From Actinomadura luteofluorescens (GTDB lineage Bacteria; Actinomycetota; Actinomycetes; Streptosporangiales; Streptosporangiaceae), in contig NZ_JACCBA010000001.1 of the NCBI RefSeq assembly GCF_013409365.1, positions 1,612,001 through 1,676,000 on the forward strand: a DNA stretch of 64,000 bases, read 5' to 3'. The position numbers were made by a program, and so were the translations under genes. Of the stretch, positions 5,790 through 18,260 are shown one piece after another (positions within the stretch are counted from its first letter, which is position 1; each line of letters begins with the position of its first letter). Under the pieces are notes generated by a model, which had not been told where the DNA came from, ran no database searches, and saw only the letters and a list, made by a program, of their open reading frames with translations.

Positions 5790-7115
5790 TCAGTCGGGAA
5801 AGACGCCCGGACGGTACTTCGGGACGCGTAATTTGACCTTTGTTCCGGCGCCGAGCGCTGTCTCGACGGTGAGGCCGTACTCGTCCCCGTAGACCTGGCG
5901 CATGCGCGCGTCGACGTTCGCGAGGCCGATGCCGGGGGCGCCCTCAGGCCGGTCGTGGGTGGCGACGCTCCCCCAGCCGGTGGGCCCGGGACGTCCGAGG
6001 GGCGCCGAGAGGATCTCTTCGAGGCGTTCGGGATCCATGCCGATCCCGTCGTCCTCGACGCTGATCGCGGCCTCGGCGCCCGAGTCGCGGGCCACGATCG
6101 AGATGTGGAACGCCCGGCGGCCCCCGGCCATGCCGTGCCGGACGGCGTTCTCGACTAGGGGCTGGAGCGCGAGGAACGGGACGGCGACCGGCAGCACCTC
6201 GGGCGCGACCTCGACGTTGCACTGCAGCCGCTCGCCGAATCTGGCGCGCTCCAGAAGCAGGTAGCGGTCGATCGAGCGCAGCTCGTCGGCGAGTGTGGTG
6301 AAGTCGCGCGGGTTGCGGAAGGAGTAGCGGGCGAAGTCGGCGAAGTCGAGCAGCAGGCCGCGGGCCCGCTCGGGGTCGGTGCGGACGAACGAGGCGATCG
6401 TGGTCAGCGAGTTGTAGACGAAGTGCGGCGAGATCTGCGCCCGCAGCGCGCGCATCTCGGCCTCGGCGAGGCGGACGCGGACCGAGTCGAGCCCGGCCAG
6501 TTCGAGCTGCCCGGTGACGAGCCTGGCCGCCTCCCCGACCGCGCGGACCCGCGCGGCGGACGGGCTCGGCCAGTACGCGGTCAGCGTGCCCTCGACGCGG
6601 CCCTCGACGGTGAGGGGGGCGATCATCGCGACCTGGACGCCGCAGTGCGGGTCGCCGCAGGCGAGCGGCTCGGGTGCGATGACCCGGGGCCTGCCGGAGG
6701 TGAGGACGGGCAGCGCGTGCGCGACGGCCTCTCCCGCGTGGGCGCCGCGGCCGGTGCCGTCCCAGGCCAGCAGCCGCGGCGCGGCGCCCGCGCCGTCACC
6801 GGGATCGCCGGGTTTGCCGGGGTCGCCGGCGCCGTCAGGGTCGTCGGGCGGGCGCGCCGCCACGATCGCGACCGCCTCGGCGCCGAGCAGGGAGCGCAGC
6901 AGCCGGGTCGCCCTGCGCGCGGCGGCGCCGGTGAGCCCGGCCCGCAGCGGGGGCGCGGCGTGCGCGACCAGGTGCAGGGCGGCGAGGGCCGCCGCTTCCG
7001 CCGGGTCGGCCCGCCCTCGCCGCGGCAGCAGGCACCACCGGCGCGGCGCCCAGACCCCGCTGGCCCCGGCTGCCGCGGCGCACACCACGACATCTGTGAC
7101 GGACGGTAGGTCCAT
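5790..7115 (-). CDS. LytS/YehU-type sensor histidine kinase
   Basis: A 441-residue kinase. An N-terminal hydrophobic segment and basic stretch lead into a GAF-like sensory region (about 60-220). The His_kinase domain has the LytS phospho-acceptor box SPHFVYNSL near residue 235, and the ATPase N box is ENAVRHG near 340. There is no multi-spanning 5TM-Lyt domain, so the signal is probably sensed through the GAF-like region. It forms a pair with the LytTR regulator downstream and heads the symporter operon. The start lies eight bases after a TACCGT box, consistent with a leaderless mRNA. Confidence 0.88.
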   Translation of the reverse strand: MDLPSVTDVVVCAAAAGASGVWAPRRWCLLPRRGRADPAEAAALAALHLVAHAAPPLRAGLTGAAARRATRLLRSLLGAEAVAIVAARPPDDPDGAGDPGKPGDPGDGAGAAPRLLAWDGTGRGAHAGEAVAHALPVLTSGRPRVIAPEPLACGDPHCGVQVAMIAPLTVEGRVEGTLTAYWPSPSAARVRAVGEAARLVTGQLELAGLDSVRVRLAEAEMRALRAQISPHFVYNSLTTIASFVRTDPERARGLLLDFADFARYSFRNPRDFTTLADELRSIDRYLLLERARFGERLQCNVEVAPEVLPVAVPFLALQPLVENAVRHGMAGGRRAFHISIVARDSGAEAAISVEDDGIGMDPERLEEILSAPLGRPGPTGWGSVATHDRPEGAPGIGLANVDARMRQVYGDEYGLTVETALGAGTKVKLRVPKYRPGVFPD

Positions 7116-7123
7116 GGAAACTT

Positions 7124-7129
7124 ACGGTA
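7124..7129 (-). promoter_or_regulatory. -10 box of a leaderless promoter for the kinase operon
   Basis: On the minus strand the sequence reads TACCGT, then eight bases, then the ATG at 7115. This TANNNT box 6-8 nt from the start is typical of leaderless transcripts in actinobacteria. No clear -35 is visible. Confidence 0.5.
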
Positions 7130-7240
7130 ATGGCTATCATCGCCGCGGGTGCGCCTGTTGCCGATTTACCGAGGTCTCGAATGGGACACGCTCGCTCCCC
7201 CCGAACGGCCCGCTCCGGCGGACCAATCGCGGCGGACCGG

Positions 7241-14086: not shown

Positions 14087-14536
14087 TCAGCCGGACGGAT
14101 CCCGGCCGAAGACGCGGACCCACCTCCCGAGGACCACCACCGCTCCCCCCGGCACGCGCCGCGCCGCCGCCCGGCGCGGGCGCGGCGGGTCCTGCCCGTC
14201 ATAGGACCATCGCGCCTCGGCCAGCGCGAGTTCCCGCGCCGCGTCTCCGGCGAACCGGTCCCGGTTCTCGCGCGCGAAGTCCCAGCCGTCCCGGAGGGAG
14301 CCGCGCGTCGGGCGCTCGGCGGCCCACGCGGCGAAGGCCGCCTTCCAGGACGTCCCGTACGACTCGGCCAGCGAGGGCCAGGCGCGGGCGACCTCGCCCG
14401 CCCGCTTGAGCAGGATCCCGTGCGCGGCGGCCCGCACCGCGCCGGCGTCGAAGCCCTCCGGCATCGGGCCGCCCGCCGTCATGGCCCGCACGAGCGCCTC
14501 CTGCGCCGCGGCCAGCCCGGCGTCGAATTCGCTCAC
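14087..14536 (-). CDS. Small partner protein of the DUF692/MNIO cassette
   Basis: A 149-residue, mostly helical protein (ALVRAMTAGGPMPEGFDAGA, then SLAESYGTSWKAAFAAW). It ends in an Arg/Pro-rich tail with a short hydrophobic stretch (VPGGAVVVLGRWVRV). It resembles small actinobacterial proteins annotated after SCO6045 that accompany DUF692 enzymes. MNIO enzymes normally need a partner that binds the substrate leader (DUF2063, TglB or MbnC types). By position this is the candidate, though no such domain is obvious by eye. Its GTG start overlaps the enzyme stop as GTGA, arguing for equimolar production. Confidence 0.7.
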   Translation of the reverse strand: MSEFDAGLAAAQEALVRAMTAGGPMPEGFDAGAVRAAAHGILLKRAGEVARAWPSLAESYGTSWKAAFAAWAAERPTRGSLRDGWDFARENRDRFAGDAARELALAEARWSYDGQDPPRPRRAAARRVPGGAVVVLGRWVRVFGRDPSG

Positions 14537-15342
14537 GTGACGGGCTCCATCCCGGAGGCCGCGGCGATGGCGTCCAGCTCGGCGCGCAGCTCGGCGGCGG
14601 GTGGGTAGCGGCCGTCGCGCTCCAGCAGGAAGCCGGGCGGGCGGTGCCGCGCGCACAGCTCCGCGACCAGCTCCAGCACCTCGTTGGGAACGGCGGCGGC
14701 GTGCGTGTCGTGGTACCGCCCGCCCTCCTGCGAGCCGCCCGCGACATGGCAGTAGGCGATGCGCTCCAGGGGTAGGCGGGCGAGGAGGTCCGCGGGGTCC
14801 TCGCCCCGGTTGCGCGCGTTGGCGTACACGTTGGCGACGTCCAGCAGCAGGAGGGCGCCGGTGCGCTCCAGCAGCTCGGTCAGGAAGTCGGCCTCGGTGT
14901 ACTCGGCGTCAGGCCAGTCGAAGAGCGCGGCGATGGGCTCGACGGCCAGCGGGACGGGCAGCTCCGCCTGCGTCCGGCGGATGTTGGCGGTCAGCGCGTC
15001 CAGCGCGGCGCGGGTGCGCGGAACCGGCAGCAGGTGCCCGGCCTCGACACCGCCCGCGCGGACGAACGCGACGTGCTCGCTCACCAGCGGCGCGCCGAGC
15101 GCCTCGGCGCAGGCGGCCAGGCGCGCGACGCGCTCGGCGGCCACGGGCTCGGCGCCGCCGAGCGACAGCCGCACCCCGTGCGGGACGATCGCCGCGCCGC
15201 GGTCGCGCAGCGCGAGCAGCTCGGGGACGGGCGCCGCCGGGTGCACCGACTCGGCGATCACCTCGGTGAAGCGCAGCCCCGGCAGCGCGCCGACGAACCC
15301 GCTGATCTCGGGGCGCCAGCCGATCCCCACGCCCAGCCGCAT
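14533..15342 (-). CDS. DUF692/MNIO-family iron-dependent oxidative enzyme
   Basis: A 269-residue TIM-barrel protein of the DUF692 family, multinuclear non-heme iron enzymes that modify cysteines and other residues in ribosomal peptides (MbnB, TglH). Probable metal ligands and substrate residues can be seen in order: EVIAESVH, IVPHGVRLSLGG, LVSEHVAF, VEPIA, LLDVANVYANARN, IAYCHVAGG, YHDTHAA and FLLERDG. The usual EN motif after the mid-barrel strand reads EP here, a possible divergence. The start at 15342 lies one base after the stop of the Cys/Gly-tail membrane protein, whose tail is the obvious candidate substrate. The substrate is inferred, not shown. Confidence 0.85.
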   Translation of the reverse strand: MRLGVGIGWRPEISGFVGALPGLRFTEVIAESVHPAAPVPELLALRDRGAAIVPHGVRLSLGGAEPVAAERVARLAACAEALGAPLVSEHVAFVRAGGVEAGHLLPVPRTRAALDALTANIRRTQAELPVPLAVEPIAALFDWPDAEYTEADFLTELLERTGALLLLDVANVYANARNRGEDPADLLARLPLERIAYCHVAGGSQEGGRYHDTHAAAVPNEVLELVAELCARHRPPGFLLERDGRYPPAAELRAELDAIAAASGMEPVT

Positions 15343-15343
15343 C

Positions 15344-16339
15344 TCAGCCCCCTCCGCCGCAGCCGCCGCCACCACCGCACCCGCCTCCCCCACCGCAGCC
15401 GCTCCCGCCGCCGCAGCCGCTTCCGCCGCCGCACGAGCCGCCGCCTCCGCAGGAGGAGGACGAGCACACCGAGGCGGTCGAGTTGCAGGAGGAGCCCGAG
15501 TAGCCGCCAGAGGAGGCCGCGACCCCGGCCATCTCCAGGTACCGGCCGAGCCCCACGGTCTGGGCGAACACCGGGTCGAGCGCCATCAGCGCGGCCGTGC
15601 CGAACAGCGCCACGCCCATCAGCACGGCGGGCGCCGGGAGCCCGGCGTAGGACGGCTGGTTCGCCGGGTCGAGGGCGGGCTGGGACGCCTTGATCCGCTC
15701 GACGGCCAGCTCGCCCTCCCGCGTCCGCTCGGCGCCCGCGTCGAGGCCGATGGCTCCGGCGCCGAGGCCGACCAGCGCGGCCATCGGGACGAGCTTGCCG
15801 AACCCGCTGAAGGCGTCGCTCACGACGAAGGCGGCGAAGCCGACCAGGATCCAGCCGAACATGACCAGCTGGAGGGTGCGCAGCCGGCGGCGCCCGGCCG
15901 GCGCGAGCACCATGCCCTGCGCGGCGAGACCGTCGCGGAGCTGGTCGAGCGCCGCGCGCACGCCCGGCTCGGCGGTGAGTTCGGCCAGCGTCCCGGCCCG
16001 CAGGTGGGCGACCGCCCCGAAGACCGCCGTGTCCAGCGGCGTCCCGGCCGCGCGCGGGCCGCCGGCGGACGGCTCGGTGGCCAGCAGCCGGCCGTCGGCG
16101 TAGGCGTCGGCCGCGCCGTCCAGGCGCAGCGCCGTGATCGAGGCGGCGATCGCGTGCCGCCCTCCGCCCTGCAGGTAGGCGACCTCGTACGGGTGCGGAT
16201 CGCGCGCCGTGCCTTGGCGCCGGGGCGACCCCCGCAGCACCGCGGCCCGCATCCGGCGCAGGAACGCCAGCAGCACGAGCCCGATCAGGAAGTGGGCCGC
16301 GAGGAACCCCAGCGCGGGGCCCAGGATCTCGTCCGCCAT
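15344..16339 (-). CDS. TIGR04222-type membrane protein with Cys/Gly-rich tail
   Basis: A 331-residue protein. A hydrophobic N-terminal segment (about 4-26) is followed by a soluble region (AVFGAVAHLRAGTLAELTAE) and three further membrane segments near 150-172, 180-198 and 236-256. The last 50 residues are Ser/Gly/Cys only, with eight cysteines, ending in repeated GCGGGGGC units. This is the TIGR04222 architecture, whose genes sit beside DUF692 genes in actinobacteria. The tail resembles a precursor peptide fused to a membrane carrier: a substrate for cysteine modification or a metal-binding appendage. It is first in the three-gene cassette. Confidence 0.85.
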   Translation of the reverse strand: MADEILGPALGFLAAHFLIGLVLLAFLRRMRAAVLRGSPRRQGTARDPHPYEVAYLQGGGRHAIAASITALRLDGAADAYADGRLLATEPSAGGPRAAGTPLDTAVFGAVAHLRAGTLAELTAEPGVRAALDQLRDGLAAQGMVLAPAGRRRLRTLQLVMFGWILVGFAAFVVSDAFSGFGKLVPMAALVGLGAGAIGLDAGAERTREGELAVERIKASQPALDPANQPSYAGLPAPAVLMGVALFGTAALMALDPVFAQTVGLGRYLEMAGVAASSGGYSGSSCNSTASVCSSSSCGGGGSCGGGSGCGGGSGCGGGGGCGGGGGCGGGG

Positions 16340-16401: not shown

Positions 16402-17079
16402 CTACTCCTCCTCGTCGAGCCCCTTCTCGATGGCGTAGCGGACGAGTTCGACGCGGTTGTGCAGCTGGAGCTTGCCGAGCGTGTTCTGCACGTGGTTCTG
16501 CACCGTCCGGTGGGACAGGACGAGGCGCTGCGCGATCTGCTTGTACGTCAGCCCCTTCGCGACGAGGCGCAGCACCTCGGTCTCGCGCTCGGTCAGCCGC
16601 GGCGCGTCGTCGTCCTCGCGGGCGGGGGCGGCGGCGAGGCGGCGGTACTCGCCGAGGACGAGCCCGGCGAGCCCGGGGGTGAAGACGGCGTCGCCCTCGC
16701 CGGTCCGCCGGACGGCGTCGAGGAACTCCTCGCGGGCGGCGGACTTGAGCAGGTAGCCGGTCGCGCCCGCCTTCACCGCCTCCAGGACGTCCTGCTGCTC
16801 GCCGCTCGCCGACAGCACCAGCACCCGGACGGGCGGGTCGGCGGCGGCGAGGCGCCGGGTCACCTCGACCCCGCTGAGGTCGGGCAGCTGGAGGTCGACC
16901 ACGGCGACCTGCGGCCTCGCCGCGGCGGCGATGCGGACCGCGGCGCGGCCCTCCCCCGCCGTCGCGACCACGTCGTGGCCGGCCTCGGCCAGGTCGCGGG
17001 CGACCGCCTCGCGCCACATCGGATGGTCGTCCACGACCATGACCCGCAGGGGCCGGAAGGGAACGTCGCTCACGGTCAC
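16402..17079 (-). CDS. LuxR/NarL-family response regulator
   Basis: A 225-residue regulator. The receiver domain covers about residues 10-130, with the phospho-acceptor in VAVVDLQLPD and Lys in GYLLKSA. A LuxR HTH covers about 155-215 (LTERETEVLRLVAKGLTYKQ, then VQNHVQNTLGKLQL). The GTG start overlaps the stop of the upstream kinase as GTGA, so the pair is made together. The resemblance is to MacR-type regulators paired with DUF5931 kinases in Streptomyces. Its targets are not evident; the adjacent MNIO cassette reads in the same direction 62 bp downstream. Confidence 0.9.
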   Translation of the reverse strand: MTVSDVPFRPLRVMVVDDHPMWREAVARDLAEAGHDVVATAGEGRAAVRIAAAARPQVAVVDLQLPDLSGVEVTRRLAAADPPVRVLVLSASGEQQDVLEAVKAGATGYLLKSAAREEFLDAVRRTGEGDAVFTPGLAGLVLGEYRRLAAAPAREDDDAPRLTERETEVLRLVAKGLTYKQIAQRLVLSHRTVQNHVQNTLGKLQLHNRVELVRYAIEKGLDEEE

Positions 17080-18260
17080 ACCCTAGCCCGGGGCACGGTC
17101 ATCTCGACCTCGGTCCCCTCGCCCTCCGCGGAGACGATCGCCACGGTCCCGCCGAGGTCGGCGATGCGGCCGCGGATGGACTGGGCGACGCCGAGCCGCC
17201 CGTCCGCCGCCGCCCGGTCCAGGCGCCCCGGGGGCATGCCCGGGCCGTCGTCGCGGACGCTGACGGTGACCTCGCCCTCGCCGTCCTCCAGCAGGACCCA
17301 CGCGCGGGCCTCCTCACCGCAGTGCCGCCGGACATTGTCGAGGGCCGCCGCCACCGCCGCCCCGACCTCCCCGGCTGCGTGCGCCGGGAGCCGCACCTCC
17401 GTGGCGGGCGTCGAGACCGTCACGAAGGTGGAGGCGTGCCCGGTGAGCAGCGGGCGCAGGTCCGTCCCGGCCCCGGAGACGTCCGCGGGCGGCGCCGCCG
17501 GGCCCGCGCCGATGAGGGCGCGCAGCGCCGCCTCCTGCTCGCCCGCGAGGCGGCCGAGCTCGGCCGCCTCGCCGCCGAGCTCGCCGCCGCGCCGCTGCAC
17601 CATCGCCAGGACCTGCAGCACCGAGTCGTGGATGCGGCGCGCCAGCCGCTCCCGCTCCCGGGTCGCCGCCTCCAGCTCGACGGCCCGCGCCAGCCGCGCC
17701 TCCGCCTCCCGCGCCAGCCGCACGACGTGCCCGACGACGAGGCCCGCGAGGAACAGCAGCACGATGCCGTTGAACGTCGTCCCGCCGATGCCGCCGCTCG
17801 TCCCGGCGACCGCGTGCACCATGAGGTTCGCGGCGGCCAGGACGGCCGCGGCGGCGATGCCGGCCCGCCGGCCCCCGGCGACCGCCCACGCCAGCACCGC
17901 GGCCGCCACCCACGACACCGGCAGCGTCGGGCGGCCGGCCGAGATGTTCGGGGACGTCTCCACCCACGCCGTCGCCAGCACGCACCCCGCCGCGACGGCG
18001 AGGTCGGCGCCCAGCAGCGCCCTGCCCCGCGGGCCCGGGCCGCCCGGGGCGAACGCGGCGGGCCTGAAGGCGAACGACGCGTAGCCCGTCCACGCGGCCA
18101 TGACGGCGAGGACGGCCCATCCGCCGAGCGGGTGGGCGTAGCCGCCGGAGTTCATGGCGATCACGACCGCCGCGTAGCACAGGGCGAGCCCGCGGTAGAC
18201 GGCCACGGCGCGCCACAGCGCGGTCTCCAGGCCCGTCCCGCGCGGCTCAGCCGCGGTCAC
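17076..18260 (-). CDS. DUF5931/MacS-like sensor histidine kinase
   Basis: A 394-residue kinase with about five to six N-terminal membrane helices (residues 15-165), a coiled linker, and a DHp region with the NarX-type box ERLARRIHDSVLQVL near 205. Its HATPase has VAAALDNVRRHC and DDGPGMPPGRL. The MacS-like subgroup senses cell-envelope or metabolic cues through the membrane part. The GTG start overlaps the acyltransferase stop by 14 bp, and the stop overlaps the cognate regulator start. plsC-like gene, kinase and regulator are therefore one operon. Confidence 0.88.
   Translation of the reverse strand: MTAAEPRGTGLETALWRAVAVYRGLALCYAAVVIAMNSGGYAHPLGGWAVLAVMAAWTGYASFAFRPAAFAPGGPGPRGRALLGADLAVAAGCVLATAWVETSPNISAGRPTLPVSWVAAAVLAWAVAGGRRAGIAAAAVLAAANLMVHAVAGTSGGIGGTTFNGIVLLFLAGLVVGHVVRLAREAEARLARAVELEAATRERERLARRIHDSVLQVLAMVQRRGGELGGEAAELGRLAGEQEAALRALIGAGPAAPPADVSGAGTDLRPLLTGHASTFVTVSTPATEVRLPAHAAGEVGAAVAAALDNVRRHCGEEARAWVLLEDGEGEVTVSVRDDGPGMPPGRLDRAAADGRLGVAQSIRGRIADLGGTVAIVSAEGEGTEVEMTVPRARV

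Follow-up and report, generated by a model that had tools for sequence, protein, structure and literature searches.

The systems closest to the locus described here combine an MNIO (DUF692) enzyme with a partner protein and a cysteine-containing substrate. In the methanobactin (MbnABC) and TglAHI systems, an MNIO and its partner target Cys, as we propose below for the present cassette, but the precursors are separate short peptides. Bufferins (BufA/BufB/BufC) also have Cys-containing substrates, which carry Sec signal peptides and whose Cys residues become copper-chelating thiooxazoles, and their partners are DUF2063-RRE proteins of PME-type 1 (PMC12452194). The nearest description is found in the accessible text of the same paper (Antoine et al. 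2025), in which TIGR04222 proteins, mostly of Actinomycetota, adjoin MNIOs and subsets with Cys tails are proposed as MNIO substrates. According to that text, TIGR04222 proteins account for 40% of more than 1,000 Cys-containing proteins that lack a signal peptide and are encoded before MNIO genes; their Ser/Gly/Cys C-terminal segments are described and placed in the periplasm; one third of the genomes with TIGR04222 have no MNIO; and many TIGR04222 clusters seem to have no partner gene, PME-type 2 partners being predicted in at least 10%. A TIGR04222 peptide also appears in a Pseudonocardia bacteriocin cluster in the accessible part of PMC5183585. The original prediction for our locus spoke of a new type of fused RiPP-like product, a claim to novelty that is not supported in that form, since PMC12452194 already contains both the link between TIGR04222 and MNIO and the proposal that the tail is a substrate. 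Beyond the printed account, we add the co-occurrence of tail and enzyme, enzyme-partner fusions, a probable cytoplasmic location of the tail, and apparent small substrates anchored by a transmembrane (TM) helix only.

The window, by which we mean the entire 64,000-nucleotide stretch of Actinomadura luteofluorescens DNA that was analysed, carries on its minus strand a tandem of a TIGR04222 membrane protein gene, an MNIO gene and a third small gene (Table 1). These are the same two families in tandem, with the same Ser/Gly/Cys C-terminus, as in the clusters of Antoine et al. Direct reading bore out the predicted gene order, the 1-bp gap (15343) between the TIGR04222 and MNIO genes, and the GTGA overlap (14536-14533) shared by the MNIO and third genes.

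Table 1. Features of the TIGR04222-MNIO-partner cassette (positions in the window)
Feature	Position	Strand	Details
TIGR04222 membrane protein, putative MNIO substrate	15344..16339	-	331 aa; NCBIfam TIGR04222 88.7 bits, cut-off 43
MNIO (DUF692) enzyme	14533..15342	-	269 aa; Pfam PF05114 263 bits, cut-off 25
Probable partner protein, PF26136 family (SCO6045-like C-terminal domain)	14087..14536	-	149 aa, GTG start; homologues with PF26136
Cys/Gly/Ser tail of TIGR04222 protein	15347..15487	-	residues 285-331, eight Cys; direct reading
TM1 hydrophobic segment, TIGR04222 protein	16259..16315	-	residues 9-27, then RRMRAAVLRGSPRR; Kyte-Doolittle 2.47 over 19 residues
TM2 hydrophobic segment, TIGR04222 protein	15821..15877	-	residues 155-173; Kyte-Doolittle 2.14
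TM3 hydrophobic segment, TIGR04222 protein	15737..15793	-	residues 183-201; Kyte-Doolittle 1.70
H4, fourth hydrophobic helix, TIGR04222 protein	15578..15634	-	residues 236-254; Kyte-Doolittle 1.99

The tail had been described as about 50 residues made only of Ser, Gly and eight Cys. All eight Cys are present (residues 285, 292, 297, 303, 309, 315, 321 and 327), the last six spaced exactly six residues apart, but the pure run is shorter: it covers the last 40 residues (292-331), which consist of 26 Gly, 7 Cys and 7 Ser and nothing else. The first Cys sits in SSCNSTASVC, so that Asn, Thr, Ala and Val also occur there. A similar regularity was found in 96 distinct Cys tails (duplicates removed; largely from Micromonospora and its kin, judged by record titles), in which Gly or Ser precedes 430 of 450 Cys, Gly directly follows 382 of 449, the Cys-Cys spacing is six in 140 of 354 cases, and 71 of the 96 tails end in -CGG. 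GGC (Gly), AGC (Ser) and TGC (Cys) differ from one another by a single base, and drift could contribute to such tails.

Only three of the genes in this region appear to belong together. When eight window genes were compared with 150 loci, themselves chosen for having TIGR04222 or MNIO, the TIGR04222 gene recurred in 45, the MNIO gene in 119 and the partner gene in 66, while the other five recurred in 7 to 13. The flanking genes, named by eye, were considered as members of the unit and rejected: the upstream response regulator (13 loci) and kinase (9) and the downstream PfkA-like (12) and ThiI-like (10) genes recur mainly in Actinomadura-like loci, and we therefore treat them as bystanders. The response regulator and histidine kinase genes (window 16402-18260) lie upstream on the same strand, and 62 bp separate their end from the TIGR04222 gene. 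The genome itself (9.62 Mb) encodes one MNIO and two TIGR04222 proteins, and the Cys tail is found solely on the MNIO-linked copy; the second gene (L002, 1159-1812; the same gene in L089) has neither a Cys tail, clear TM segments nor a nearby MNIO. Directly upstream of this paralogue is a same-strand gene that by eye resembles an MsrB-type protein.

The enzyme is a member of the PF05114 family, as judged by a passed profile cut-off and a preserved pattern of predicted metal ligands. Nine residues (H55, H90, E135, D168, N171, H199, D212, H214 and E241), which we take to be metal ligands, are invariant in 25 of 25 aligned MNIOs, so the predicted His/Asp/Glu pattern is fully conserved. At the positions included in the printed PDB alignments, these candidate ligands match the PDB relatives 8hci (presumably TglH) or 3bww. 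Among NCBIfam models, that of BufB (NF050167) scores best, with 177 bits, and remains below its cut-off of 310; the match to the MbnB model (TIGR04159) is weak, at 27.6 bits for a cut-off of 325. The window MNIO is thus nearest to BufB, and the likeness to bufferins may extend to a partner distantly related to DUF2063; unlike bufferins, the window substrate is an integral membrane protein, its MNIO stays under the BufB cut-off and its third protein has no DUF2063 match.

The third protein had no match in NCBIfam or Pfam profiles. The best 120 of its 355 homologues all carry PF26136, some being named 'SCO6045-like C-terminal domain' proteins, and the top homologue is 97% identical and from Actinomadura luteofluorescens. 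That the third gene and the MNIO act together is supported most strongly by enzyme-partner fusion: of 100 MNIO loci from 92 genomes (out of a 394-genome sample, 94 genomes of which have an MNIO), 44 have the partner fused to the C-terminus of the enzyme and 43 have it as a separate gene, while no partner was found in the other 13. Likewise, the best 120 of 5730 homologues of one MNIO-PF26136 fusion all contain both PF05114 and PF26136. The third gene therefore probably encodes the MNIO's partner, and its presence in 87 of the 100 loci differs from the accessible account of Antoine et al., in which partners often seem to be missing; the fusions may explain those clusters. Together with the recurrence of the TIGR04222-MNIO-partner order across families, they also support the prediction that the three genes form one functional unit. 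DUF2063 (PF09836) had no match in the third protein or anywhere in its own genome. Comparison of the partner profile with nine DUF2063 proteins by hhalign gave 116 collinear columns with a score of 29.7 and P = 0.0011, at an HH probability of just 20%; controls scored 11.8 (reversed) and 10.5 and 16.0 (unrelated profiles). The alignment of the partner with a single DUF2063 protein was not significant, and the partner profile found no significant match among PDB sequences. On these profile comparisons, the PF26136 partner may be a distant DUF2063 or PME-type-2 protein.

If the tail is the substrate, tail and enzyme should travel together, and the expected co-occurrence of DUF692 and TIGR04222 genes across actinobacteria was indeed found. 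In a set of 197 class genomes, TIGR04222 matches occurred in 68 (above the cut-off in 49) and an MNIO in 39. In the resulting sample of 62 TIGR04222 proteins over the cut-off (split matches merged, window included), Cys-tailed proteins had an adjacent MNIO in 23 cases and none in 5, whereas proteins without a Cys tail had one in 12 and none in 22 (Fisher p = 2.8e-4); the association also extends to an MNIO anywhere in the genome (Fisher p = 6.4e-3), both tests ignoring kinship. For the five unpaired tails, the genome encodes an MNIO at another place in three cases (G038, G100, G111); of the other two, one tail runs up to a contig edge and the other is in a doubtful frame. L071 (the contig edge) and L080 (Ser-rich rather than Gly-rich) are doubtful members of this group, and L075 was assigned manually to the tailed proteins. 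Around 99 MNIO loci from the class sample, the window itself being skipped, Cys tails occurred in 71 of 2014 same-strand ORFs of at least 60 aa within 2 kb of the MNIO, compared with 5 of 7026 other ORFs, which excludes chance as the reason for their proximity.

The same arrangement was seen among named loci, for which we took the best 80 of 570 confirmed MNIO loci ranked by similarity to the window's enzyme family, a lineage-biased set. All 80 have the partner after the MNIO and 73 have a TIGR04222 protein, 68 of these with a tail of at least three Cys. The remaining five comprise three that end in two-Cys CGG tails (L169, L176, L183), one with a longer Gly/Cys tail containing a masked stretch (L177) and one with none (L120). 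In six of the seven loci that lack TIGR04222, the MNIO lies at the end of a contig; the seventh (L170) contains an ORF with a Cys tail but no TIGR04222 match. In the broader sample, outside the family that we take to be Streptomyces (f18), a Cys tail was present in 48 of 52 loci with MNIO and PF26136 (38 on TIGR04222 proteins, 8 on single-TM mini-substrates and 2 on other carriers, L235 and L241), and four (L064, L093, L095, L102) had no Cys tail nearby. These counts leave out weak MNIO matches in G388 (2), G335:C116 (3 pieces) and G493:C6 (2), as well as L101 and L254, which fall below the 60-bit limit. Cys-tail ORFs without a TIGR04222 match in L050, L067, L230 and L232 were excluded by eye as Arg/Pro-rich, spurious frames, and the mini-substrate count leaves out additional ORFs in L060, L241 and L246.

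The mini-substrates came to light through an apparent enzyme-tail fusion in L094, which was rejected when a frame check revealed that the overlap was a separate small ORF in another frame. Nine MNIO loci without a nearby TIGR04222 match (L092, L094, L096, L236, L237, L242, L247, L248 and L252; seven in family f17 and one each in f26 and f4), picked by eye among the Cys-tail ORFs without such a match, encode a peptide of 60-119 residues downstream of the MNIO instead. In each peptide, a short N-terminus leads into a single TM helix, which is followed by an Arg-rich stretch and a tail of Gly, Ser, His and Cys; the complete peptides contain 2-9 Cys. They usually begin at the end of the MNIO gene, the one in L096 being about 0.5 kb away, and L237 has two in tandem. 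From their sequences, these peptides are apparently minimal anchored MNIO substrates. The accessible part of PMC12452194 makes no mention of such TM-only mini-substrates.

Loci of f18 behave differently. The Streptomyces MNIO-PF26136 fusions (SCO6045-like) carry the same enzyme and partner domain on one chain, but the Cys tail lies within 3.5 kb in only 12 of 35 f18 loci with MNIO and partner and is missing within that distance in 23, the available flank being shorter than 3.5 kb in four of the 23. A Cys-less TIGR04222 gene is nearby in 16 of these 23, and a targeted protein search in ten tail-less f18 genomes gave no match in six and weak matches in four. Because the two tail-less f18 MNIOs in our alignment (L053, L090) retain all ligand residues, the enzymes of such loci may use a different substrate; alternatively, the tail may have been lost from them. 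A genome-wide scan for the end motif CGG-x-CGG-stop found 34 places in 30 of 197 genomes, nine of them known TIGR04222 tails, and was discarded as having no power, since a reversed control pattern gave about as many matches (41). The proposal that the tail is the MNIO substrate thus gains from the co-occurrence and from the nine loci in which an anchored tail is all that stands beside the enzyme, and is weakened by the tail-less f18 loci.

We interpret the cassette as a minimal post-translational modification unit and assign this explanation as a whole a probability of roughly 0.7. An MNIO in the cytoplasm, which the PF26136 partner would hold or activate, would oxidise Cys in the [G/S]-C-G repeats of the TIGR04222 tail. 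TM1, with the N-terminus outside, and a TM2-TM3 hairpin would anchor the TIGR04222 protein, and its core domain and tail would then lie in the cytoplasm within the enzyme's reach. The resulting tail, still tethered to the membrane, would carry several heterocycles formed from Cys, most likely of a thiooxazole-like kind, and might bind a soft metal such as copper or give thiol/redox protection at the inner membrane face. Thiooxazole-type modification and metal binding are suggested by analogy with BufB, the nearest named model, and copper in particular by analogy with bufferins.

The side of the membrane on which the tail lies bears directly on this explanation. It is rather unlikely, in our judgement, that the tail is an MNIO substrate located outside, in the periplasm or at the cell surface, after modification preceding export or insertion, although the accessible text of PMC12452194 states an outside location from topology predictions, accompanied by AlphaFold2 models for a selection of proteins. 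The K+R pattern was scoreable in 115 of 137 distinct TIGR04222 proteins and not in the other 22. The charge pattern was N-out in all 85 scored Cys-tailed and all 30 scored tail-less proteins, K+R being most frequent in the stretches that follow TM1 and TM3 and in the one that precedes TM2. In a Cys-tailed set that included duplicates (the window, L062/L178), the averages were 10.9 inside and 0.9 outside, measured over unequal spans of 45 and about 17 residues. This pattern implies an N-out protein with its core domain inside, and the tail should then also be inside unless H4 spans the membrane, so that H4 decides its side. A 19-residue Kyte-Doolittle scan of 77 proteins found four hydrophobic segments in 35 and three in 36; four TM helices with the N-terminus outside would indeed place the tail outside. 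However, the H4 cores of Cys-tailed f18 copies in G039, G143, G173 and G182 contain polar or charged residues, and the mini-substrates, predicted to have one TM helix with Arg after it, need no H4. In all ten of these peptides, encoded at nine loci, the 20 residues that follow the sole TM helix include 4-7 K/R, and no more than one K/R precedes the helix. We thus consider a cytoplasmic tail, unlike the published placement, to be probable; the tail had been predicted to be displayed at the membrane, and the inner face is the likely side.

Two further readings dispense with an anchored, modified product. The tail might be left unmodified, as a Cys-rich low-complexity segment that buffers metals or thiols, with the MNIO acting on another substrate. 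GGC-rich DNA could by itself yield such a composition, many f18 loci have enzyme and partner with no tail nearby, and four Cys tails (L034, L052, L071, L075) have no MNIO near them. Yet three of those four genomes hold an MNIO elsewhere and the fourth tail is at a contig end, Cys tails cluster strongly near MNIOs, and the nine mini-substrate loci keep nothing but an anchored Cys tail beside the enzyme, which together make this reading unlikely. Alternatively, the tail could serve as a core peptide which, once modified, is cleaved off and set free as a diffusible RiPP. Methanobactin is one small MNIO product that is exported or released, and the mini-substrates resemble small precursors. Bufferins are likewise small and exported or released, according to the accessible part of PMC12452194. 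Against release, only the genes for TIGR04222 protein, MNIO and partner recur widely among the eight window genes compared, none of which looks protease- or exporter-like, no obvious conserved cleavage motif was seen by eye, and the membrane anchor is retained even in the mini-substrates; we regard this as very improbable.

If the interpretation of the cassette as an anchored modification unit is correct, MNIO chemistry would also decorate the inner face of membrane proteins, beyond exported copper-binding peptides, and would modify a resident protein rather than make a released natural product. A wider generalization, which we advance tentatively and at somewhat less than even odds, is that actinobacterial MNIOs build permanently membrane-anchored, cytoplasm-facing arrays of modified Cys. 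Apart from a single TM helix, the substrate would need just an Arg-rich segment and a tail of Gly, Ser, His and Cys, giving anchored RiPPs of 60-119 residues without a TIGR04222 core, with the enzyme's partner fused in many lineages. The natural fusions and short substrates would then make reconstitution easier than with a 330-residue polytopic protein. As to function, the accessible part of PMC4991794 reports that SCO6045 is induced 3.0-fold by H2O2 alongside cysteine biosynthesis genes in an HbpS-SenS-SenR-dependent manner. SCO6045 is probably, from the family name, the S. coelicolor MNIO-PF26136 fusion, and its induction hints at a role in thiol or redox stress.

Several loci depart from the simple cassette in their gene content or setting. 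A bufferin-like cluster of MNIO and DUF2063 genes with a Cys-rich ORF upstream was seen in a genome of the same phylum (L103, 28-2370). Tandem TIGR04222 genes, both Cys-tailed, precede a single MNIO in L057, L115, L118 and L136, and in L043 and L044 two adjoining TIGR04222 genes, one Cys-tailed and one Cys-less, follow the MNIO. In L060, an extra Cys-rich ORF (6809-7168) with 7 Cys in its last 40 residues lies between the TIGR04222 and MNIO genes. Finally, a cassette of TIGR04222, MNIO and small protein genes is present in Tsukamurella tyrosinosolvens (L194, 534-3510), in a record whose annotation gives it as a plasmid of 33.5 kb.
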